A DNA stretch of 64,000 bases from Acidimicrobiia bacterium (GTDB lineage: Bacteria; Actinomycetota; Acidimicrobiia; Acidimicrobiales; Bin134). The notes beneath the pieces are model-generated. The model was not told the origin of the DNA and ran no database searches. It worked only from the letters and a program-made list of their open reading frames with translations. How positions within the stretch are numbered: the stretch's first letter is position 1; each line of letters begins with the position of its first letter. Location of the stretch: assembly GCA_009842675.1 (NCBI GenBank), contig VYEX01000005.1, forward strand, positions 1-64,000, given 5' to 3'. A program made the translations under genes and the position numbers. Below are positions 10,082 through 20,361 of this stretch, piece after piece.

Positions 10082-10141
10082 GCCCGGCGGATTATCGCCG
10101 GGCCATCAGACACAGCGCCCGGCGGATTATCGCCGGGCCAT
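10082..10141. terminator. Tandem identical hairpins between convergent genes
   Basis: Two perfect copies of a 25-nt unit occupy 10082-10106 and 10117-10141, separated by 10 nt. Each contains the inverted repeat GCCCGGCG / CGCCGGGC with loop GATTAT, so each RNA strand would form an 8-bp GC-only stem. They lie between the stop of the alcohol dehydrogenase (10069) and the stop of the minus-strand LLM gene (10141-10143), so a bidirectional, rho-independent-like terminator is the simplest reading. There is no U tract, which is common in GC-rich actinobacteria. The exact duplication suggests a mobile or slippage-generated repeat unit. Confidence 0.7.
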
Positions 10142-10995
10142 TAGGGAGAGCCAAATTCCTCAATCCAGCGGGTGTAGTCGTCGAGCACCGGCAGCACTTC
10201 GTCGGCTGAGCCGCCGTGGGGGAACCGCAGCACCACCTCGGTGATGCCGATGTCTCGGTAGTAGGCCAGCTTTCCGGGGTCGGGGTGGGTTCCGTAGGTG
10301 ACCAGTTCCAATTCGTCGATGCTTCGCCCGGCTTCTGCCATGGTCTCGGCTAGGTCAGCCAGGGCGGCCCTTATCCCGGCCCCACCGATCGGCATCCAGC
10401 CGTCGCCGAACTCGGCGATGTGGGCAAACGTGGTGGGGCCAGGTGCGGCGCCGATAATGGTGCGGATGCGGGGCTGTTGAATGGGTTTGGGCCAGCACCA
10501 CGAAGGTTCCATGTGAACGAATTCGCCGTGAAACTCGGCGACCTCCTGGCCCCACAGCGCCTGGGCGCACAGCATGTGCTCGCGTACTCGGGCGCGGCGG
10601 CGGGGCACGTCGATCCCGTGGTTTTCCATCTCCTCGTGATTCCAGCCGTAGCCCACGCCCAGCACCAAACGACCACCGCTCATCCAATCGAGGGTGGCGC
10701 ACTGCTTGGCGAAGGCTATGGGGTCGTGTTGGGCGGGCAATGCGACCCCCACTCCCAGTCCCACGGTTGTGGTGGCCTGGGCGCAGGCCGCCAAGGCGAT
10801 ATAGGGGTCGAGCGTGCGCAAGTAGGTCTCGGGCAGAACCTCCTCGCCGGTGGGCGGCGGGGTGCGCCTGCTGGTCGGGATGTGGGTGTGCTCGGGCAGG
10901 TAGATGCAGGCGTAGCCTCGGGCTTCTGCCTCTTGGGCCAGACGCATAGGCGACATGGACCGGTCGGTGGTCTGCATCATCACGCCAAATCGCAT
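10141..10995 (-). CDS. LLM class F420-dependent oxidoreductase
   Basis: 284-residue TIM-barrel enzyme of the luciferase-like monooxygenase superfamily, close to the TIGR03619 F420-dependent group. It begins MRFGVMMQTTDRSMSPMRLA. Other family marks are LTTVGLGVGVALPAQHDPI-like strands, SGGRLVLGVGYGWNHEE, and IIGAAPGPTTFAHIAEFGDGWMP near the C-terminus. The ATG at 10995 was preferred because everything upstream in that frame is antisense to ribA. Such proteins use reduced F420 or FMN; the substrate is unknown. The 3' end is convergent with the alcohol dehydrogenase gene, and the start is 123 bp from the divergent ribA. Confidence 0.85.
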   Translation of the reverse strand: MRFGVMMQTTDRSMSPMRLAQEAEARGYACIYLPEHTHIPTSRRTPPPTGEEVLPETYLRTLDPYIALAACAQATTTVGLGVGVALPAQHDPIAFAKQCATLDWMSGGRLVLGVGYGWNHEEMENHGIDVPRRRARVREHMLCAQALWGQEVAEFHGEFVHMEPSWCWPKPIQQPRIRTIIGAAPGPTTFAHIAEFGDGWMPIGGAGIRAALADLAETMAEAGRSIDELELVTYGTHPDPGKLAYYRDIGITEVVLRFPHGGSADEVLPVLDDYTRWIEEFGSP

Positions 10996-11118
10996 GGACA
11001 AAGCGTATGCCTTTCGGGCTATCTCCCTGCTTGGCCGTGCCAATGTGTCCCTTGCCAGCACATACTCCTCTTGGGCTGCCTGTTTGACTGCTCGCGGCGG
11101 TACTCTCAGGGCAGTCTC

Positions 11119-11727
11119 ATGAGACACCAACCCGAGATCAGGTTGATAGCCACCACCGAGGTACCCATGAATTGGGGTCGCTTCACCTGCCACGCCTTCG
11201 AATCGATGGACGATGGTGAGGAGCATGTGGCGTTCGCCCTCGGCGACATAGACAGTGCCGACGAGGTCTTGGTACGGGTACACAGCGAGTGCCTCACCGG
11301 CGATGTGTTCGGCTCGTGGCGCTGCGATTGCGGGGCACAACTGCACGCGGCCATGGATGCCATTGCCGACTGCGGCACTGGTGTATTGGTGTATCTGCGA
11401 GGCCATGAGGGCCGAGGTATCGGAATTGGCCACAAGGTCCAGGCCTACGCCCTTCAAGACAAGGGCCACGACACCGTGGACGCCAACCTGGAATTGGGCC
11501 TGCCGGTGGACGCTCGCACCTACGGCATCGGTGCCGCCATCCTGGCCGAGTTGGGTGTGAAGCGGGTCGCGCTGATGACCAACAACCCAACCAAGCACGA
11601 CGGATTGGCCTCATTCGGCCTGGAGATAGCTCGCCGGATTCCCCTCGAAGTGGCCCCCCGAACCGAAAACGTGGACTACCTCCGCACCAAACAGCAGCGC
11701 CTCGGCCATCTGCTCGATTTGGTGTAG
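11119..11727 (+). CDS. ribA: GTP cyclohydrolase II, stand-alone
   Basis: Converts GTP to 2,5-diamino-6-ribosylamino-4(3H)-pyrimidinone 5'-phosphate, the first step of riboflavin synthesis. 202 aa. Zinc ligands are in the motif SECLTGDVFGSWRCDCGAQL, and the GTP-binding loop is YLRGHEGRGIGIGHKVQAY; NVDYLRTKQQRLGH ends the family core. Many actinobacteria have RibA fused to RibB; here the RibB domain is absent, so this is a single-domain form. The ATG at 11119 gives a start only a few residues before the conserved region. It lies beside an LLM gene; LLM enzymes use FMN or F420, whose deazaflavin part also derives from this branch. No FMN riboswitch is visible upstream. Confidence 0.9.
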   Translation: MRHQPEIRLIATTEVPMNWGRFTCHAFESMDDGEEHVAFALGDIDSADEVLVRVHSECLTGDVFGSWRCDCGAQLHAAMDAIADCGTGVLVYLRGHEGRGIGIGHKVQAYALQDKGHDTVDANLELGLPVDARTYGIGAAILAELGVKRVALMTNNPTKHDGLASFGLEIARRIPLEVAPRTENVDYLRTKQQRLGHLLDLV

Positions 11728-11733
11728 AGAAAA

Positions 11734-12477
11734 TCAGCCCTCTGGTCTCGCAGTCGACAAAAGCGAGGCCGCCTCGCGATCGACAACCACGGAGACATCG
11801 GCGTGCAGTTGAACTGCGGAGGCCGGAGTCTCAACCGACACCGGTCCTTCGAGGGCATCACGGATCGGACGGGCCTTGTGTTTGCCAAGGGCGACGAGAA
11901 GGATCTTCTTCGCCTGCAAGATGGTTCCGATTCCCTGGGTAATCGCCAGGCTAGGGACGTCATCGATCGAGTCGAAGAACCGAGCATTGTCACTTCGCGT
12001 CTGCTCACAGAGCGCAACAACGCTTGATGGCTCGTCGAATGGAGTGCCCGGTTCGTTGAATGCGATGTGACCGTTGCTCCCGATGCCGAGAAGTTGGATG
12101 TCGATTCGAGCCTTGGTCACCAGTTGGTCGTAGCGCCAGGCCTCAGCCTCAAGGTCGGGTGCTCTCCCATCGGGCCCGAACACCGCGTCATCGCCCAGGT
12201 CGACATGATCGGCAAGACCCGTCCTGATCACGTTTCGGAAGGCCTGAGGGTGCCTGGGTTCAAGGCCGACGTACTCGTCAAGCAAGTAGACAGACGTTCC
12301 AGAGAAGCTGAGCGCGCCGGCTTGGTACCGATCAACCAGAGATCGATAGATGCCGACCATCGTGCTGCCGGTCGCCATACCGATGCGGGGCCGGAGTCTT
12401 GACCGGACGACGCCCTCTACGATGTCGGCTGCCTTTACGGCAGCCGCTGCGGCATCTTTGGCGATAAACACCTGCAC
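11734..12477 (-). CDS. nagB: Glucosamine-6-phosphate deaminase-like protein
   Basis: 247 aa, NagB/RpiA superfamily. Predicted to convert an amino-sugar 6-phosphate to ketose phosphate plus ammonia. Family motifs: phosphate loop GMATGSTMVGIY, catalytic YLLDEYVGL, QLLGIGSNGHIAFNEPGT with Asn in the DGH position as in Gram-positive enzymes, and LLVALGKHKA. No ATG is available; GTG 12477 fits the length of the family. It is the last gene of the seven-gene operon starting at 19212, 17 bp after the ABC ATPase. No nagA or separate sugar kinase is present, so the true substrate may differ from GlcN-6-P. Confidence 0.82.
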   Translation of the reverse strand: MQVFIAKDAAAAAVKAADIVEGVVRSRLRPRIGMATGSTMVGIYRSLVDRYQAGALSFSGTSVYLLDEYVGLEPRHPQAFRNVIRTGLADHVDLGDDAVFGPDGRAPDLEAEAWRYDQLVTKARIDIQLLGIGSNGHIAFNEPGTPFDEPSSVVALCEQTRSDNARFFDSIDDVPSLAITQGIGTILQAKKILLVALGKHKARPIRDALEGPVSVETPASAVQLHADVSVVVDREAASLLSTARPEG

Positions 12478-12494
12478 GGACGGAATCCGATGCT

Positions 12495-13256
12495 TCAGCC
12501 GGTGCCGCGGGCCCCGGTGATGTATGACACAAGGTCGTCCTTGGTGACGTCGGCCACGTTGACTTCGGCGCACTTACGTCCTTGGTAGAGCACCACTGCT
12601 TGGTCGCACACTGCCAGCACCCGGTCCATGTTGTGGGTGATAAGCAGTACCGCTACTCCCTGGTCTCGCAGATTGACTATGAGGTCGAGAACCCGTTGGG
12701 TTTGCTCTACGCCGAGGGCGGCAGCAGGCTCATCGAGCAGCACAATCTGCTGGCCCCAGGCTACCGCCCGCCCAATGGCGACAGCCTGGCGCTGTCCGCC
12801 GGAGAGCGAGCCGACTGAACGCCTCAGCGACGGAATTCGGATGTCGAGGCGAGCCAGCGTGGAAGCACATTCCTGGCGCATGCGCCGTTTGTCGAGCAAG
12901 CCGATGCGGGCCCCCAGCCATCCCCCTCGGGTGTGCTCGCGGTTCAAGAAGAGGTTCTCGGCCACATCGAGCGGATCGATAACCGACAACGTCTGATGAA
13001 CGGTCTCGATGCCCAGCTCTCGTGCGTGGCGTGAAGAGCTGATGCGGTGCTCTGTCCCCTGGACGAAGATGTGGCCCGCGTCGGGTTGGTAGAGGCCGGA
13101 GATGCATTTCACCAGGGTCGACTTCCCCGCCCCGTTGTCGCCCAACAAAGCGGTGACCCGACCGTGGTGCAATTCAATGGAAACGTCGTCAAGGGCTTGT
13201 ACAGCCCGAAACGACTTCGAGATGCCAGAGGCGACCAACGCGGGGGCACTGCTCAT
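12495..13256 (-). CDS. Sugar-type (CUT2) ABC transporter ATPase, single domain
   Basis: 253 aa cytoplasmic ATPase. Walker A GDNGAGKST, signature SVGSLSGGQRQAVAIGRA, Walker B QIVLLDEPAAALG and H-loop LLITHNMDRV are intact. RbsA/MglA-type ATPases of this class normally contain two nucleotide-binding domains in about 500 aa; this one has one, like FrcA, and would act as a homodimer. ATG 13256 is favoured over 13286 because GGGAGGG stands 5-6 nt upstream of it. It works with the permease at 14510 and the binding protein at 15549. Unusually, the PLP enzyme gene separates ATPase and permease within the operon. Confidence 0.88.
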   Translation of the reverse strand: MSSAPALVASGISKSFRAVQALDDVSIELHHGRVTALLGDNGAGKSTLVKCISGLYQPDAGHIFVQGTEHRISSSRHARELGIETVHQTLSVIDPLDVAENLFLNREHTRGGWLGARIGLLDKRRMRQECASTLARLDIRIPSLRRSVGSLSGGQRQAVAIGRAVAWGQQIVLLDEPAAALGVEQTQRVLDLIVNLRDQGVAVLLITHNMDRVLAVCDQAVVLYQGRKCAEVNVADVTKDDLVSYITGARGTG

Positions 13257-13292
13257 GGTCTGCCCTCCCTGCTCATCGACTGCCATCCCCGC

Positions 13293-14507
13293 TCATCGGG
13301 AGCCCTTCCAGGCGACCGGATTGCCCAGCACGTCCCAGACGCCGGCCACCGATGGGTTGTCCGAGCGCACTCCAGCCACACCGACAACAAATGCCCTGGT
13401 CACGAAGGCTTGGATGCGAAAACCGAAGACGACAGTATCGCCCTCGCTGACGGTGCGACCCGGTTCAAGCCTCAATTTGGCGTAGTAGTCGATGGCGGCG
13501 GGTTCGGGCATGTCCACGGGCACGGGCTCAGTCACCGCCTCGCTGGGGTCGTGGGCAACGACGGCGGTGGTCTGGTAGTCCCCGAATACGGGGTCGATAT
13601 AGAGACCCCCGCCAAAGCAGAACGGGATGCCCTGATGGATGTGGGCGATCTCGCTGACGTAGCAGACCGCAGGTTGTTCGGGCAGGTCGCCCACCGCATG
13701 CAGGGGAGTGGTTCCGGTGAGCCCATGCCCCGGCTCAACTTGCGTGGCCCCTGCCTCGGCGAGCTTCGACAGCACTGCTGTAGATGTTGTGCCCGGCGCG
13801 TTGATCTGGAGCATGTCTTGGTCTTCGCCGCCCAAATGTTGCCGGGCAGACTCAGCGGCTCGAGCCAGGGTTGCCATGTTGGGAGTGACCCGAGCGCCTC
13901 CAGTATGCGGATCGAAAAGCAGGGCGGGAAACGTCGTGAGGCCGGCGAACCGAACGCCGGGGAGGCCGCCGATATGGTCGATCATGGCGCTCAGCTCTTC
14001 GATGGGGACGCCGCCCTCATGGCCGGTGTAGAACTCGTCGCCGTCAGCGAACACCCTCACCAGCAGTTTCTGGACCCGCCCGAGGCGAGCGGCCGCGGCC
14101 GAGGCCTCAGCCGCCTTGTTGGGCGAGAACACCGTCCAATAGTCGGGTTCCATGGCAATGGCCTCACCGGTCTCGGCCGCAGCTACTTGCACGAGGTGGC
14201 CGATGTGTCCGAGGTTGTGCCCGTTGGCGGTTATGGGTCGAGCGCAGGCCATGTCGACAGCCACGTATCCGTCGACACCAGCTCCTGTTATGGCATTGAG
14301 AGCACTTGGCGCCCTACCCAATTGCTTGGTCATGGCGTACACAGTCAAACCCAGTGCCTTGGCTTCGCCCACGAGGTGGGCGGTGTTGGCGGACACGGCA
14401 TCGAGGTCCACCGCATAGCTGTTGGCTGGGATGGCGCCAGCCTGGTGCAGCGCCACTGCCGATTCCACGAAGGCCGGGTTCTTGCTCCGAAGCGATTGCA
14501 GGAACAC
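13293..14507 (-). CDS. YhfX-like PLP-dependent enzyme (alanine racemase fold)
   Basis: 404-residue fold-type III PLP protein resembling YhfX: an alanine-racemase-like barrel with Lys61 in VYAMTKQLGRAP as the expected PLP lysine, followed by a C-terminal beta domain. Other conserved-looking stretches are FAGLTTFPALLFD, QINAPGTTSTAVLSKLAEAG and ATQVEPGHGLTGTTPLHA. No reaction is firmly assigned for the YhfX family; racemisation or retro-aldol cleavage of an amino acid are the usual suggestions. It is embedded between permease (2 bp away) and ATPase (36 bp) genes of a CUT2 importer, so it very probably acts on the imported compound or its deacylated product. Confidence 0.78.
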   Translation of the reverse strand: MFLQSLRSKNPAFVESAVALHQAGAIPANSYAVDLDAVSANTAHLVGEAKALGLTVYAMTKQLGRAPSALNAITGAGVDGYVAVDMACARPITANGHNLGHIGHLVQVAAAETGEAIAMEPDYWTVFSPNKAAEASAAAARLGRVQKLLVRVFADGDEFYTGHEGGVPIEELSAMIDHIGGLPGVRFAGLTTFPALLFDPHTGGARVTPNMATLARAAESARQHLGGEDQDMLQINAPGTTSTAVLSKLAEAGATQVEPGHGLTGTTPLHAVGDLPEQPAVCYVSEIAHIHQGIPFCFGGGLYIDPVFGDYQTTAVVAHDPSEAVTEPVPVDMPEPAAIDYYAKLRLEPGRTVSEGDTVVFGFRIQAFVTRAFVVGVAGVRSDNPSVAGVWDVLGNPVAWKGSR

Positions 14508-14509
14508 CG

Positions 14510-15520
14510 TCAGGTCTCCTTGGCTTCTCGCATGCTCAGGGCCACGGCCAAGATGATGATCACACCCCGGGCGATGAGCTGGTCGGCCACTTCCAACCCC
14601 ATGAGGATGAGGCCGTTGTTGAGCATGGCCATGATCAGGGCGCCGGTGACGGCTCCCAGTATCGACGCCCGACCGCCGAACAAATTCGTTCCGCCGATCA
14701 CCACCGCGGCGATGACGGTGAGAAGGTAGTCCTCTCCGAGGTCATGGCGGCCGATGCTGAGGCGGCCGGCGAGGAGAATCCCGGCGAATCCCGCCGCGGT
14801 GGCGCTCACCACCAGAGCGGAGATCTTCACCCGGGCCGTGTTGATCCCCGCTGCGTTGGCTGCATCTCGATCTGCTCCGGTAGACAACACATGGCGTCCC
14901 CAGCGCAGGTGGTGCAGCGCAAAGTGCCCGAGTATCCCGACGACGACGATCCAGATCAGCAGCGAGGAGACCGGGCCCAGTCCGCCGGCGCCGAAAATCC
15001 CGCTAAACCGATCGTTGCGGATGGGCAGCGACTGCAAGTCGTTCCAATTTCGGGCAATACCGCTGATGATGCCCAGCATTCCCAGCGTCACCAGAAACGA
15101 CGGGATTCGCACCTTCACGGTGATGAGCCCGTTTACGATCCCGACCAGCGCCGATGCCCCGAGAGCCGCCAGTGCGCCAGCCAGAAAGCCGTGGTTTCCC
15201 ACGATTTCTGCGGCCACCAGCGACGAGAGCGCAACCACCGAGCCGACCGAGAGGTCGATCTCGCCTGCGGCCAGAGCGAATGCCATGCCCACCGCCATGA
15301 CCGCGATCGGTGCAGCCTGTCGACCGATGTTGAGCAGGTTGGAGGAGCTGAGGAACCCGTCGTCGTGCAGGATGATGCTAAACGTGGCCAGGATCAGGGC
15401 GAACGCCAGGTAGACGACGTACTGGCGAAGCCCGCCGTTATGACGGTAGCGGTCGATCCAGGCCTCGACCGGGGAGGGGAGACCGGCCGAGGCCTGTTTG
15501 CTGATCGACTTTCTAATCAC
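14510..15520 (-). CDS. Sugar-type (CUT2) ABC transporter permease
   Basis: 336-residue integral membrane protein of the RbsC/BPD_transp_2 type, with about eight to ten hydrophobic helices. Typical stretches include VMAVGMAFALAAGEIDLSVG, which is the conserved substrate-path motif of ribose-type permeases, and VIAAVVIGGTNLFGGRASIL. It starts at GTG 15520, 28 bp after the binding-protein stop. Together with the binding protein (15549) and ATPase (12495) it forms one importer. CUT2 systems take up monosaccharides, nucleosides or autoinducer-like molecules; neighbours NagB and a deacylase suggest an amino-sugar-like or N-acylated ligand. Confidence 0.9.
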   Translation of the reverse strand: MIRKSISKQASAGLPSPVEAWIDRYRHNGGLRQYVVYLAFALILATFSIILHDDGFLSSSNLLNIGRQAAPIAVMAVGMAFALAAGEIDLSVGSVVALSSLVAAEIVGNHGFLAGALAALGASALVGIVNGLITVKVRIPSFLVTLGMLGIISGIARNWNDLQSLPIRNDRFSGIFGAGGLGPVSSLLIWIVVVGILGHFALHHLRWGRHVLSTGADRDAANAAGINTARVKISALVVSATAAGFAGILLAGRLSIGRHDLGEDYLLTVIAAVVIGGTNLFGGRASILGAVTGALIMAMLNNGLILMGLEVADQLIARGVIIILAVALSMREAKET

Positions 15521-15548
15521 CTGTGCAGGTTATTTCTCCGTCAGACCA

Positions 15549-16769
15549 CTAGCCGCCGAGGGCGTCAAGCACCTCTTGCGGCGGGTCGGCGGCCAGCGAC
15601 ACCCGGTATGCCTCGACGATGTTGGCAGCAGTTACCTCGATGGCAGGTACAACCACGAATGGAGGCGCTTGCTTCCCGAGCAGGCCATAGGCGCCCTCGG
15701 TGGCCATTGTCCGGCCTATCTCGTAGGCCTCGTCAGCGGCGATGCCCACGATGTTGCCGCCTTCCACGAGGTCGAGGGAGACGTTGGTGTCCAAGTCCAT
15801 GGTCACCACCGCCACATCGCTGGCCCCCGCGGCTCGAAGCGCCGCCAGCACGCCGTCGGCGGGGCCGGCCGACCACGGGGCGTAGATGCCGTCGAGGCCG
15901 GGATTGCGGGTCAACATGGTGGAGGCGATGTCCTCGGCAGTGGCCGGGTCGGCCAGACCCTGCTCGGCCACGATCTGGATCCCGGGGAAGTTGATCTCGA
16001 TCCAAGCCTTGAAGGCCTGGTCGCGCTGGTTGGTCACATAGAACGGGGCATCGTGGAAGATGAATCCGATCTCGCCTTCTCCGCCCAGCGCGTTGCCGAG
16101 CAAATTGGCGGCGGCGATGCCCATTGCGGCCAGGTCATCGGTCACCACTCCGACGAATTCTTGACCCTGCGTGTACCCCTCCGGGGTCGTGGACAAGAAC
16201 ACCAGCTGCACGCCGGCATCGACGGCGGGCCGGAAGCCTTCTGCCGCGGACACCGGGTCGATGGTGAGGCTGAGGATGATGTCGGGGTTGAGCGCCATTG
16301 CCGTTTCGACGTCGTTGGCCTGCTGGGCGGGGTCGAAACCAGCCTCGGTTTCTACCACTACGTCGATGCCCATCTCGGCGAAGGCATCGCGCGCCCCCTG
16401 GCTCACCGCATCGGTAAAGGCCCCGGAGATGTGCCAGAGCAAGGCGGCGGTGTAGCCGCCCTCTTGGATCTGGGCCAGCTCATCGGCGGTGAGAACGATC
16501 TCTCCTGACGGGCTAGCCGGCTCTCCGTTCGGCCCTTGGGTTACCGGGGCTTCCCTAGCCGGAGCTTCCTCTTCGGTGGGCTCGGGCTCAGGCTCGGGTT
16601 CGGGTTCGTCAGGCGGTTCGGGGGCCGCGGTGGGCGCGGCGGTTGCCGGCGCAGCCGTGGCTTCGCTGCTGCTGTCATCGTCGTCGTTGCCGCACGCCGC
16701 GGCCACCAAGACGAAAACGGCAAGAAGTGCGCTCAGTACGAGCCATCGCGATCTCTTTCGTGGTTGCAT
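15549..16769 (-). CDS. Substrate-binding lipoprotein of CUT2 ABC transporter
   Basis: 406 aa. Signal peptide with lipobox LVAAACGNDDDD near residue 30, so lipid-anchored outside the membrane. A low-complexity linker of Ala/Pro then Glu-Pro repeats (about residues 40-80) precedes a periplasmic-binding-protein type I domain (Peripla_BP_4, RbsB/LacI-like), e.g. DIILSLTIDPVSAAEGFRPA and LDGIYAPWSAGPADGVLAAL. ATG 16769 has GAGGAGA 8 nt upstream. It follows the M20 gene by 14 bp. The ligand is unknown. Its mature N-terminus CGNDDDD is shared with two unrelated binding proteins in this window. Confidence 0.9.
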   Translation of the reverse strand: MQPRKRSRWLVLSALLAVFVLVAAACGNDDDDSSSEATAAPATAAPTAAPEPPDEPEPEPEPEPTEEEAPAREAPVTQGPNGEPASPSGEIVLTADELAQIQEGGYTAALLWHISGAFTDAVSQGARDAFAEMGIDVVVETEAGFDPAQQANDVETAMALNPDIILSLTIDPVSAAEGFRPAVDAGVQLVFLSTTPEGYTQGQEFVGVVTDDLAAMGIAAANLLGNALGGEGEIGFIFHDAPFYVTNQRDQAFKAWIEINFPGIQIVAEQGLADPATAEDIASTMLTRNPGLDGIYAPWSAGPADGVLAALRAAGASDVAVVTMDLDTNVSLDLVEGGNIVGIAADEAYEIGRTMATEGAYGLLGKQAPPFVVVPAIEVTAANIVEAYRVSLAADPPQEVLDALGG

Positions 16770-16783
16770 GGGTATCTCCTCTT

Positions 16784-18031
16784 TCAGTTGGTGGTTGGGG
16801 CTGGTTCGAGTCCGCACCACGACGCCACGAAATGGGCGAGGGTGCGGGTGGCGGCTACGAGTTCGTCGATCTCCACGCGTTCGAACGGCGTGTGGGCGTG
16901 CGAGATGTCCCCGGGCGCGAAGTACACCCCGGGCACGCCAATGGCGGAGAGGAACGACTTCTCCGACCAATACGGCGCAGCCTCGATTCGGGGTGCATCG
17001 CCGGTGATCGCTGTTATCGACGCGCCCAGGGCTTGCACGGCGGGGTGGTCGACAGGGGTCTCGTCGGGGGTGCCCCCCACCGGATGGTCCCGGGGGGCGG
17101 TGAACTCCACCGAGGCGTCGACCCCATTATCTGCGGCCACTCGATCGGCGATGTCTCGGATGGATTGTGCCGCGGCGTCAAGGCTCTCCTGGGGTAGGAC
17201 TTTGCGGATCAAAGACAGATCGAACCGCCCGGGCACGGCGATGCTCTCTCCCGAGCGGACTTCGGTGACCAGCAGGAATGCCTCTCCAATCAGCGGATGT
17301 GCTGGTTGGGTGCGGAGACTCTCGGAATGCTCCCAGAGAGCCGTCAGGAGGTGGTGTCCGGCCTTCAAGGCGTCCACTCCCAACTCTGGCCGTCCGAAGT
17401 AGGCCGACTGTCCAGTGAGAGTGATGTTGGCGATGAGGAAGCCCATCTGCGCGGTGTAGATGGCCGAGGTGGTGGGCTCGGTGTAGACCAGGAAGTCCGG
17501 CACCTGGTCTTGCTGGATAGTTCCGTCGGCTAACGCCGCTCTCATGCCGGCGGAAACGCCGCTGCCGGGTTGGCCCGATTCCTCGTCACTTACGAAGAGA
17601 GCGGTCACCGAGCCTCTTGGCCGGCACCCAGACCGGCCGATGGCCCGGAGTGCCTCCAAGATGGCGCAAATGCCGGCTTTCTGGTCAGCGGACCCTCGGC
17701 CCCAGATCTCTCGGTCGATGATCGAGGCAGCAAAGGGATCGGCTCGCTCGGTCCCGGCCCAGTGCCTTGTCCAGTCGTCGGCATGCACGGTGTCGAGATG
17801 CCCCGCCAAAACCAGCGATGGGCGACCATGGCCGACACCGGCATAGACATTGGCCCGGGTGTCGTCGAATGAGACCAGCGCCCTTTGTTCCCAAGAGTCG
17901 TCCAGCTGATCGTGTACCCATCGGGCGAAATCCCCTTCTTGGGGTGTCACGCTGGGTATGGCGATGGCCTGTTGGAGGAGCTCCACCAGCGCGTCGGCAT
18001 CCACCGACTCGGCGACGGCCTCGGGGTTCAT
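16784..18031 (-). CDS. M20-family metallo-deacylase/peptidase (ArgE/DapE type)
   Basis: 415-residue two-zinc hydrolase of the ArgE/DapE/CPG2 group. Metal-binding and catalytic residues: His78 and Asp80 in VLAGHLDTVHADD, Asp116 in GRGSADQKAG, Glu150-Glu151 in FVSDEESGQ, and a late His in SHAHTPFERV. Such enzymes remove acyl groups or amino acids from N-acyl compounds. ATG 18031 overlaps the ROK regulator stop in ATGA, so it is translationally coupled. Its place between regulator and importer argues that it processes the imported substrate, most simply by N-deacylation. Confidence 0.87.
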   Translation of the reverse strand: MNPEAVAESVDADALVELLQQAIAIPSVTPQEGDFARWVHDQLDDSWEQRALVSFDDTRANVYAGVGHGRPSLVLAGHLDTVHADDWTRHWAGTERADPFAASIIDREIWGRGSADQKAGICAILEALRAIGRSGCRPRGSVTALFVSDEESGQPGSGVSAGMRAALADGTIQQDQVPDFLVYTEPTTSAIYTAQMGFLIANITLTGQSAYFGRPELGVDALKAGHHLLTALWEHSESLRTQPAHPLIGEAFLLVTEVRSGESIAVPGRFDLSLIRKVLPQESLDAAAQSIRDIADRVAADNGVDASVEFTAPRDHPVGGTPDETPVDHPAVQALGASITAITGDAPRIEAAPYWSEKSFLSAIGVPGVYFAPGDISHAHTPFERVEIDELVAATRTLAHFVASWCGLEPAPTTN

Positions 18032-19212
18032 CGAGGGCGCCCCAATGAGTCGGTCACCAGCGACTCGTGCAGCTCGTCGAGTGCTCGCGACACAGCCCCA
18101 AGAAACGTGGCCCGCCGCCCAAGTGTCGAGGCAAAGACCTCCACTGGCTGGGGGAGCCGTCGGCGCAACTCGGCATTGACGGCTTCCACGAACACTGGAT
18201 TGGCGCCCACTCCACCGCCGAAGACAATCCGCTCCGGGTCTGTCAAAAGGCACACCTGCATGACGGCGCTCGCCATGGCCTCCGCCGCGCTTTCCAAGAC
18301 ATGAGCGGCTGCCGAGTCTCCCCGGGCAGCGGCGTCAAAGATCTCGGGCACGTCGGCGCTGCCATGCAGCTTGGTCGTGAATCCGGATTCGGCGGCCTGT
18401 CCGAATTGCTTGCGGATGGCTGGTGCCGATGAAACGTCTTCCAAGATGAGGGGGGCGCTTGAATCGTCAGGGGAGTAGTTGAGCACCAGCGATCCCACCT
18501 CCCCGGCGGCACCAGTTCCTCCGCGGTACAGCTCCCCGCCCACGATGATGCCCATACCGATTCCGGTGCCGATCGAGATGGCCGCAAAGTTGGTCTGGTC
18601 GATGTCCAGGTCGGCTTCGGCCAGCGCCGCCAGGTTCACATCGTTGTCCACGTGGACATCCATCTTGAGAAGCTCTTCGAGCTTTGCTCGTACTCGCAGA
18701 CCCTCGAATCCCGGCAGATTCAAGGCCTGTTCGACACTGTCAGAATGCGGGCGGTAGATGCCGGGGATGCCGATACAGGCCGAACCGGCTTGGCCTCCGA
18801 TCTCTGACAGCATCTGATGAGCCGTTTCCGCGACCCGGTTGAGAGCGGTCTCGGCGTTCGGTCCGGTCTCCAGCTCCTGTTCGGAGACCACGGTCCCCAA
18901 GAGGTTTGCCACACCGACGATGATCTTTGTGGCGCCGACATCGGCCGCCACCACGAACCCGGCCTCCGGCACGAACTCGTAAAGCATGGCCGGGCGGCCC
19001 ACATTCCCGGAGGTGGTGGGCGTGTTGGCCAGGCGGATCAAACCCGATGACTCCAAATCGGCCACCAGATTGGAGACCGTTGGCTTGGACAACCCGGTTA
19101 CACGGGCAATGTCGGCCCGGGAAATGCCCTGGGGTGCAGCATCGAACATGGCATCGACGATGCGCTGCCCGTTCAACAGCCGAAGCAGTCGGGAGTCGGA
19201 GGCCCCTCTCAC
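18028..19212 (-). CDS. ROK-family transcriptional regulator
   Basis: 394 aa. An N-terminal winged helix-turn-helix (ISRADIARVTGLSKPTVSNL, residues 29-48) is joined to a ROK sugar-kinase-like domain: ADVGATKIIVGVANLLG, then VDNDVNLAALAEADL with the catalytic-type Asp, and ISIGTGIGMGIIVGGELYRG. The usual ROK zinc motif CXCGXXGC is absent: after GEVGSLVLNYS come no cysteines. It leads the seven-gene operon and probably represses it until a sugar ligand binds. The start is GTG 19212, with no Shine-Dalgarno; a good promoter places the transcript start almost on the GTG (see promoter entry). Kinase activity cannot be excluded. Confidence 0.88.
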   Translation of the reverse strand: MRGASDSRLLRLLNGQRIVDAMFDAAPQGISRADIARVTGLSKPTVSNLVADLESSGLIRLANTPTTSGNVGRPAMLYEFVPEAGFVVAADVGATKIIVGVANLLGTVVSEQELETGPNAETALNRVAETAHQMLSEIGGQAGSACIGIPGIYRPHSDSVEQALNLPGFEGLRVRAKLEELLKMDVHVDNDVNLAALAEADLDIDQTNFAAISIGTGIGMGIIVGGELYRGGTGAAGEVGSLVLNYSPDDSSAPLILEDVSSAPAIRKQFGQAAESGFTTKLHGSADVPEIFDAAARGDSAAAHVLESAAEAMASAVMQVCLLTDPERIVFGGGVGANPVFVEAVNAELRRRLPQPVEVFASTLGRRATFLGAVSRALDELHESLVTDSLGRPR

Positions 19213-19250
19213 TAGTTTGTAAGCATAACTAACAAAGAAACCCCATGCAA
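19213..19250 (-). promoter_or_regulatory. Promoter and likely operator of the ROK operon
   Basis: Reading the minus strand, TTGCAT (19245-19250) and TATGCT (19222-19227) are separated by exactly 17 bp and resemble -35 and -10 boxes. The GTG of the ROK gene lies 9-10 nt after the -10 box, so the mRNA would be leaderless or nearly so. An inverted repeat TAGTT-N9-AACTA (19213-19231) covers the -10 box and would be a natural site for autorepression by the ROK protein. Based on sequence only. Confidence 0.5.
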
Positions 19251-19306: not shown

Positions 19307-20326
19307 TCAGCAGAACACGGGGGCGATGACGTCGGCGAAGGTGCGCATCCAGCCCTCTTTGTCCTCCATGAACTGGGCCAAGACCATCTTGTTGACGCCC
19401 CGCTCGGCCAACTCGGTCAAGCGGTCAATGCAGTATTCGGGCGGGCCGGCAATGGTGCCCCGACTGGCCAGGAACTCGGTGAGGCCATGCTTGTCGGCCA
19501 GCCCGGCGTTCACGTTGGCGCCGTCGGCGAAGGCGTGGTGGCGGCTGTCGTACTCGGCCATCATGGCGGCTACCCGCGGTTTGATGTCCTCCGGCAGTCC
19601 TTTGCCGTCCATGTGGAACCGGTAGACGTGGTTGGCGGTGCCCGCGATCAGGAACTTGATCTGCTCCAGGCCGGCCTCCTCCGACTCGGCGAACAGCAGG
19701 TTGGCGAACCACCACACCTCGATCTCGTCGGGGTCTCGGCCCACGGAGCGGGCCCCTTGGGCGATGTTGTCCAACACGATTTCGCACACGTCAGCGGGCA
19801 GGCTGTTGGAGAGGATCACTCCGTCGGCAATCTGGCCGGCCATGTACTGGGTGCGGGGGCCTTCGGCGGCTATCCACACCGGGACAGGGGCGGGACCCCA
19901 GCGCATGTGCAGGTCCTTGCCCTGCCAGCGGGCAGTCTCGCGGTTGCTGAGCGCTTTGACCGCCGCGGTGTAGTCCCGGAGGTAGTCCACCGATGCCGGT
20001 TTCTCTCCGATGTTGAGCAGCGCGCTGTCGCCTGAGGCGATCCCGTAGCGGAACCGCCCACCGGAGATCTGTTGGAGCGCCATGGCCGTCGATGCAGCCG
20101 CCGCCGGGTGGCGGGTGACGGGATTGGTAACGGTGGTGGCCAGCAGAGCATTCTCGGTGTGGTTGGCGGCCACTGAAAGGGTGAGGAAGGGGTCGGCCCA
20201 CAGCGACTGGGAATCGCCCGCCACCACCATGGAGAACCCGGAGCTCTCCACTTGGCGAGCCCAAGCTCCGTAGGTGGTGAGGTCTTCGGGGACCTTCCCG
20301 GTGCCGAATGCGATGGATGCGCTCAT
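19307..20326 (-). CDS. LLM class flavin/F420-dependent oxidoreductase
   Basis: 339-residue luciferase-like TIM-barrel enzyme. Family stretches include FSMVVAGDSQSLWADPF, LATTVTNPVTRHPAAAASTA, ISGGRFRYGIASGDSAL and VPVWIAAEGPRTQYMAGQIA, the latter three close to 5,10-methylene-tetrahydromethanopterin-reductase-like proteins. ATG 20326 (MSASIAFG) is preferred; an in-frame start 24 bp upstream is possible. Divergent from an acyl-CoA ligase starting 35 bp away, which suggests a shared promoter region and perhaps a shared lipid or xenobiotic substrate. The cofactor, F420 or FMN, is not decided by sequence. Confidence 0.84.
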   Translation of the reverse strand: MSASIAFGTGKVPEDLTTYGAWARQVESSGFSMVVAGDSQSLWADPFLTLSVAANHTENALLATTVTNPVTRHPAAAASTAMALQQISGGRFRYGIASGDSALLNIGEKPASVDYLRDYTAAVKALSNRETARWQGKDLHMRWGPAPVPVWIAAEGPRTQYMAGQIADGVILSNSLPADVCEIVLDNIAQGARSVGRDPDEIEVWWFANLLFAESEEAGLEQIKFLIAGTANHVYRFHMDGKGLPEDIKPRVAAMMAEYDSRHHAFADGANVNAGLADKHGLTEFLASRGTIAGPPEYCIDRLTELAERGVNKMVLAQFMEDKEGWMRTFADVIAPVFC

Positions 20327-20361
20327 GGCTTGAGGATAGAGGCCTCTCATAGCATGGGCCG

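Follow-up and report, generated by a model that had tools for sequence, protein, structure and literature searches.

YhfX is a PLP enzyme of the yhf cluster of enterobacteria, fusobacteria and Streptomyces (yhfZ-U-T-PTE-yhfS-yhfX-yhfW), in which it is accompanied by a permease and a hydrolase. The structure of the Escherichia coli protein (4kbx) was released in 2014; in the literature searched we found no published function or biochemical report for YhfX, and nothing relevant to the gene cluster described below. Two further systems resemble parts of this cluster: (i) the nag operons (NagC-NagA-NagB, NagK), which share with it a ROK regulator and NagB, as well as a ROK kinase found in relatives, and (ii) CUT2 importers of the Frc type, which likewise consist of a substrate-binding protein (SBP), a permease and a one-domain ATPase.

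The locus analysed here, located in a window (the whole stretch of DNA under study) of 64,000 nucleotides, differs from each of these systems. It lacks YhfT, YhfU, PTE, YhfS and YhfW of the yhf cluster, and contains a CUT2 importer, an M20 hydrolase and a ROK regulator instead, which bears out the earlier view of an import/hydrolysis/YhfX unit unlike the enterobacterial one. Unlike the nag operons, it has no NagA, either in the operon or in the genome, it adds M20 and YhfX, and NagB is optional. In contrast to Frc-type importers, its transporter is linked to M20 and YhfX, and the SBP is devoid of several canonical ribose contacts. The comparisons presented below indicate that the catabolic unit is real, is shared across phyla and has a known architecture, built around a single enzyme that is uncharacterised, YhfX. 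The cassette provides YhfX with a defined context: an importer, a hydrolase for amides, and a kinase and a deaminase for amino sugars.

Results

Organization of the operon

Seven co-directional genes occupy positions 11734-19212 of the minus strand, separated by gaps of -4 to 36 bases (Table 1). Their open reading frames, order, strand and spacing agree with the sequence-only reading of this DNA, as do the family names proposed there for all seven products, each of which exceeds the Pfam gathering score. The gene starts were chosen by spacing; that of nagB is most likely the GTG at 12477, although 12471 is also possible. No RNA elements or tRNAs were detected, and a promoter scan at strict consensus gave no match.

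The operon is convergent with a gene for a stand-alone GTP cyclohydrolase II (RibA), which is syntenic in the genus. It is also flanked by two genes for F420-type luciferase-like oxidoreductases. The latter are syntenic in close relatives and not in other families, and therefore are not part of the unit.

Table 1. Genes and conserved element of the operon, with flanking genes (window coordinates)
Feature	Position	Strand	Remarks
F420-type luciferase-like oxidoreductase	19307-20350		flanking gene
Conserved, predicted promoter/operator element TTTGTTAGTTATGCTTACAAACTA	19213-19236	-	24 bp; abuts GTG start of HTH-ROK gene
HTH-ROK transcriptional regulator	18028-19212	-	394 aa; PF00480 143.5 bits, MarR_2 (winged helix) 34.9 bits
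M20 amidohydrolase/deacylase (ArgE/DapE-like)	16784-18031	-	PF01546 (Peptidase_M20) 101 bits
CUT2 lipoprotein substrate-binding protein (SBP)	15549-16769	-	PF13407 (Peripla_BP_4) 112 bits
CUT2 permease	14510-15520	-	PF02653 (BPD_transp_2) 119.6 bits
YhfX-type PLP enzyme, alanine-racemase fold	13293-14507	-	PF21279 80.8 bits, PF01168 51.1 bits
Single-domain sugar ABC ATPase	12495-13256	-	253 aa; PF00005 (ABC_tran) 106.8 bits
NagB-family glucosamine-6-phosphate deaminase	11734-12477	-	PF01182 (Glucosamine_iso) 71 bits
RibA (stand-alone GTP cyclohydrolase II)	11059-11727	+	flanking gene
F420-type luciferase-like oxidoreductase	10141-10989		flanking gene

Conservation of a six-gene core in two phyla

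Loci were collected with YhfX as the query, which matched in 20 of 248 genomes of the order, in 5 of 396 genomes of the phylum, at 41 loci of a collection of genome contigs and in 19 plasmid records. The proteins of the window were mapped onto these loci to score the content of each neighbourhood. The block ROK-M20-SBP-PERM-YhfX-ATP was present in essentially every locus of the Acidimicrobiales main clade with enough flanking sequence, as well as on plasmids of Ruegeria, Rhizobium, Aminobacter and Nitratireductor, and the same six genes are shared by Inquilinus. Among 40 full-context loci (39 distinct ones, since L050 and L081 are apparently the same contig, and many of them related), the permease and the ATPase were found in all, M20 and the SBP in 39 each, and the ROK regulator in 38. 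NagB was encoded in 25, a PPGK-like kinase in 19, and NagB-II in two.

The core proteins are approx. 35-55% identical to their counterparts in the other phylum, which places the grouping far beyond chance. Moreover, the same genes occur in a different order in Inquilinus (SBP-SBP-PERM-ATP-YhfX-M20) and in genome G213 (ROK-YhfX-ROKkinase-M20-SBP-PERM-ATP). Such rearrangement speaks for a functional link and not just for inheritance of the gene order. Of the association of YhfX, M20, a CUT2 importer and NagB noted earlier, the core recurs across phyla. NagB itself, although present in the window, is accessory and lies outside the conserved core, being absent from most of the alphaproteobacterial copies seen.

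Reduced sets were also identified. The locus of Kitasatosporales G618 contains only ROK, YhfX and a permease, while the set of Embleya comprises a ROK regulator, an APC permease, YhfX, a ROK kinase and a SIS deaminase, without M20; the amide step is thus not universal. In both cases an amino-acid (APC) permease takes the place of the sugar importer. The six-gene block is carried in nearly unchanged form by actinobacteria associated with sponges and by unrelated bacteria of soil and sea. It therefore very probably serves the catabolism of one specific compound that contains nitrogen, in many cases with an amino-sugar step at the end.

Several individual loci deviate from the common pattern. On a plasmid of Rhizobium sp. 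RCAM05350 (L074) the genes for M20, the SBP, YhfX and the ATPase are each split into several pieces, so this copy is decaying or poorly sequenced. The NagB match of L027 is in two pieces. The core is kept without NagB in two close relatives, Ca. Poriferisocius anaerobius (L030) and a CAR3 MAG (L034).

The YhfX enzyme

The only solved relative of the window YhfX found by sequence was E. coli YhfX 4kbx (E 2e-76; 37% identity), with which it also shares its fold (Z 46.9). The next folds (Z 24-28) were those of D-threonine aldolases, a beta-hydroxyaspartate aldolase, diaminopimelate decarboxylase and alanine racemases, with Z of 26-28 for D-threonine aldolase and 25 for alanine racemase; the D-threonine aldolase/D-serine dehydratase family is thus the closest in fold after 4kbx. 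YhfX carries the domains typical of its family, Ala_racemase_N followed by PF21279 (YhfX-like_C), and Pfam reported no other C-terminal family at E 0.001, the metal-dependent C-terminal domain of the D-threonine aldolase/D-serine dehydratase group included. Lys61 and Tyr341 are invariant in 14 diverse YhfX sequences from both types of cluster. By analogy with alanine racemase, the lysine is predicted to bind PLP and the tyrosine to act as the catalytic base on the opposite side.

Phylogenetic analysis separated YhfX proteins linked to ROK, CUT2 or APC genes (16 rows) from those of yhf clusters (6 rows), with support of 99/97. Copies of the yhf type were found in a Streptomycetaceae-type family (f84; L077 and L129-L133 examined), Vibrio and Cetobacterium, and YhfT/U, PTE, YhfS and YhfW all accompany YhfX in L077, L131 and L133. 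Within the yhf-type cluster of Cetobacterium somerae, a gene annotated as an amidase (L070:4994-6025) may be a parallel to M20; at the thresholds applied, its product matched neither Pfam nor NCBIfam models. A new YhfX reaction is possible. D-glucosaminate was considered as a substrate and set aside, because its conversion would need neither a hexosamine kinase nor NagB.

The M20 hydrolase

Besides the PF01546 domain, the metal-site motifs of M20 enzymes (GHxDxV, WGxGxxDxKxG, DEESG, EPT, HT) are kept across 10 diverse homologues. The protein, like NagB, scores below the curated cut-off of the specific NCBIfam model, here that of an ArgE/DapE subfamily (TIGR01910, 172.7 versus 217.6 bits). N-acyl amino acids are the usual substrates of M20 enzymes of the ArgE/DapE-like type, and the amides cleaved by this group mostly lie beside a carboxylate. 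At the family level, the substrate may accordingly be an N-acyl amino acid or an amide between an amino acid and an amino sugar.

The CUT2 importer and its ligand

The combination of Peripla_BP_4, BPD_transp_2 and ABC_tran domains identifies the transporter as a CUT2 importer, with RbsA, AraG and AraH among the best NCBIfam relatives. Its ATPase has one domain, and not the usual two-domain CUT2 form of approx. 500 aa; single-domain CUT2 ATPases such as FrcA are known.

The nearest folds to the predicted SBP model (pLDDT 94) were CUT2 SBPs of the ribose/arabinose type, a comparison that names no ligand. Alignment with the ribose-binding protein 2ioy revealed that the equivalents of R141 and D215 are kept, whereas Ser, Trp and Asp occupy the positions of D89, N190 and Q235 of ribose binders (E. 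coli numbering). With three of the five ribose contacts changed, a plain ribose-like ligand is unlikely. The contact positions are nearly constant in both phyla, and the ligand of the cassette is therefore probably the same in both.

Deaminases and kinases

The window NagB contains the NGHIAFNEP motif and scores 221 bits against NCBIfam nagB (TIGR00502; cut-off 236.9). It is the sole Glucosamine_iso gene found in the window genome, which thus has no 6-phosphogluconolactonase of this family. The absence of nagA noted from the operon extends to the entire genome (95.5% complete), in which no match above the cut-off was detected. Taken together, the single nagB and the missing nagA indicate that NagB does not serve the classical N-acetylglucosamine (GlcNAc) route.

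In most other families of Acidimicrobiia a 260-aa PPGK-like ROK kinase, closest to the polyphosphate/ATP glucomannokinase 1woq, is encoded between the ATPase and NagB. The genus of the window has no kinase in the operon, but all six genomes tested carry an unlinked PPGK homologue (32-36% identical), and the window genome has a further ROK kinase. Judging from these homologues, the kinase seemingly missing from the operon exists, unlinked, in the window genus.

A SIS protein related to NagB-II follows the ATPase in Rhizobium NIBRBAC000502774, NGR234 and genome G564, and Embleya also has a SIS deaminase of the NagB-II type. NagB-II, which is not homologous to NagB, stands where NagB is found in Acidimicrobiia. 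The protein of Rhizobium NIBRBAC000502774 reaches 275 bits with NF046059 (below the cut-off of 430), and 212 bits with the solved deaminase 8eol as against 31 with the fructosyl-amino-acid-6-P deglycase 3eua. A divergent SIS gene lies beside the cassette of G213, which itself holds a ROK kinase. In total, two different ROK kinase subfamilies were found beside YhfX. That deaminases of two unrelated folds and kinases of two subfamilies have been recruited to one neighbourhood is the strongest evidence that an amino-sugar phosphate is processed, and makes the amino-sugar chemistry proposed earlier plausible. However, neither a deaminase nor a kinase adjoins the cassettes of Ruegeria, Aminobacter and Nitratireductor, and since most alphaproteobacterial cassettes are of this kind, the amino-sugar end may not be obligatory. 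Such genomes may supply these enzymes from elsewhere; a NagB-II homologue is encoded on another contig of the Inquilinus genome.

The HTH-ROK regulator and the upstream element

In the HTH-ROK protein the usual His of the ExGH motif is replaced by Ser (GAAGEVGS) and the Zn motif (CxCGxxGC) was not found; it thus shows neither of these marks of a ROK sugar kinase. The sequence-only reading had allowed that this protein doubles as a kinase. Such a role is unnecessary: the same protein, with the same motifs, occurs where the operon holds a separate PPGK-like kinase, and in the window genome kinase homologues are located elsewhere. It is most likely the switch of the operon, in view of the element in front of its gene.

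The 24-bp element preceding this gene is the same, letter for letter, in five genomes of the genus. At up to 3 mismatches each of them contains a single site, and the reversed control gave none; the search for a wider regulon in these five genomes found the site at the operon alone. The element is an imperfect inverted repeat that is not significant by itself in the window genus. Taken singly, most Acidimicrobiia loci gave weak palindrome statistics, and only the repeat of Aminobacter beat all 200 shuffles. A clearer inverted repeat, TTTAGTTCG-N9..11-CGAACTAAA or close variants of it, occupies the same place in alphaproteobacterial loci. XylR-like ROK regulators typically have TTAGTTT-type half-sites. 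A conserved site in this position fits an autoregulated ROK operator, and we predict this role for the 24-bp element.

Discussion

From the gene content, its conservation across phyla, the kinases and the two unrelated deaminase types beside YhfX, and the conserved upstream site, we infer the following order of steps, type of ligand, YhfX reaction and mode of repression. The CUT2 importer would bring in an amide-containing compound, the amide of which would be cleaved by M20 to yield a free alpha-amino compound. This amine would be isomerised or cleaved by YhfX, a fold-III PLP enzyme. The amino-sugar part would be phosphorylated by a ROK-family kinase (encoded in the operon in most relatives, unlinked in the window genus) and then deaminated by NagB to fructose-6-phosphate and ammonia. 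HTH-ROK would repress the operon from the site abutting its own start codon, until released by the substrate or an intermediate. That the locus is an inducible operon for the catabolism of a single, specific compound with an amide bond, and that the amino-sugar part of this compound is deaminated to fructose-6-phosphate, seems to us about evenly balanced between right and wrong. The more ambitious proposal, of a new cross-phylum pathway in which YhfX, by a novel PLP reaction, forms an amino sugar from the deacylated substrate ahead of phosphorylation and deamination, is put forward only tentatively.

The core could instead handle an N-acyl amino acid or a similar conjugate, from which M20 would free a D-amino or beta-hydroxy amino acid to be racemised, cleaved or subjected to elimination by YhfX, with the kinase and NagB as an optional add-on for the sugar part of some substrates. 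The usual substrates of ArgE/DapE-like M20 enzymes, the D-threonine aldolase and alanine racemase folds next to 4kbx, the substitution of an APC permease for the sugar importer (Embleya, G618), and the lack of a deaminase in most alphaproteobacterial copies are all consistent with such a route. We nevertheless consider it rather unlikely, because sugar-linked ROK regulators are found throughout the clade, the binding proteins are of the sugar type, and two unrelated deaminases and two kinase types have been recruited beside YhfX.

Another scheme would make YhfX an amino-sugar 2-epimerase (e.g. mannosamine to glucosamine), acting via a C2 carbanion on an imported N-acyl-mannosamine or a relative of it after deacylation by M20, and followed by phosphorylation and deamination. 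We judge this improbable: we know of no PLP amino-sugar 2-epimerase, deacylation of an amino sugar by an M20 enzyme would be unusual, and yhf clusters have neither kinase nor deaminase. It would fit the missing nagA and the YhfX-ROK kinase-NagB-II set of Embleya, which is devoid of M20. One cultured Acidimicrobiia strain from a sponge appeared solely on plates to which N-acetylmannosamine had been added (PMC12263773), which is a weak lead.

Equally doubtful is an ordinary N-acetylglucosamine/glucosamine route with M20 standing in for NagA and YhfX in a side function. NagB, the glucokinase-like ROK kinase of relatives and the absence of nagA are compatible with it, but the pairing of YhfX with M20 persists in genomes that have no deaminase nearby, the conservation of YhfX is comparable with that of the transporter, and the three changed contact positions of the SBP argue against a plain sugar ligand.

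Least probable is a glycation-product (Amadori/Heyns) route like frl, with a kinase followed by a deglycase-like SIS/NagB step, since NagB is not, to our knowledge, a deglycase family and the SIS protein of Rhizobium resembles NagB-II much more than it does the deglycase. Its attraction lies in the APC permease and SIS enzyme of Embleya and in the yhf names of the E. coli frl genes (frlD=yhfQ, frlB=yhfN; PMC9749803).

For uncultured sponge-associated Acidimicrobiia, the substrate of the cassette would reveal a compound from the host or from seawater on which they feed. The occurrence of the cassette in cultured bacteria (Ruegeria sp. TM1040, Rhizobium) means that the substrate of YhfX can be sought. 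Just upstream of the cassette on the megaplasmid of Ruegeria sp. TM1040 (L065, L147) there are genes for GABA transaminase, succinate-semialdehyde dehydrogenase and 5-oxoprolinase.
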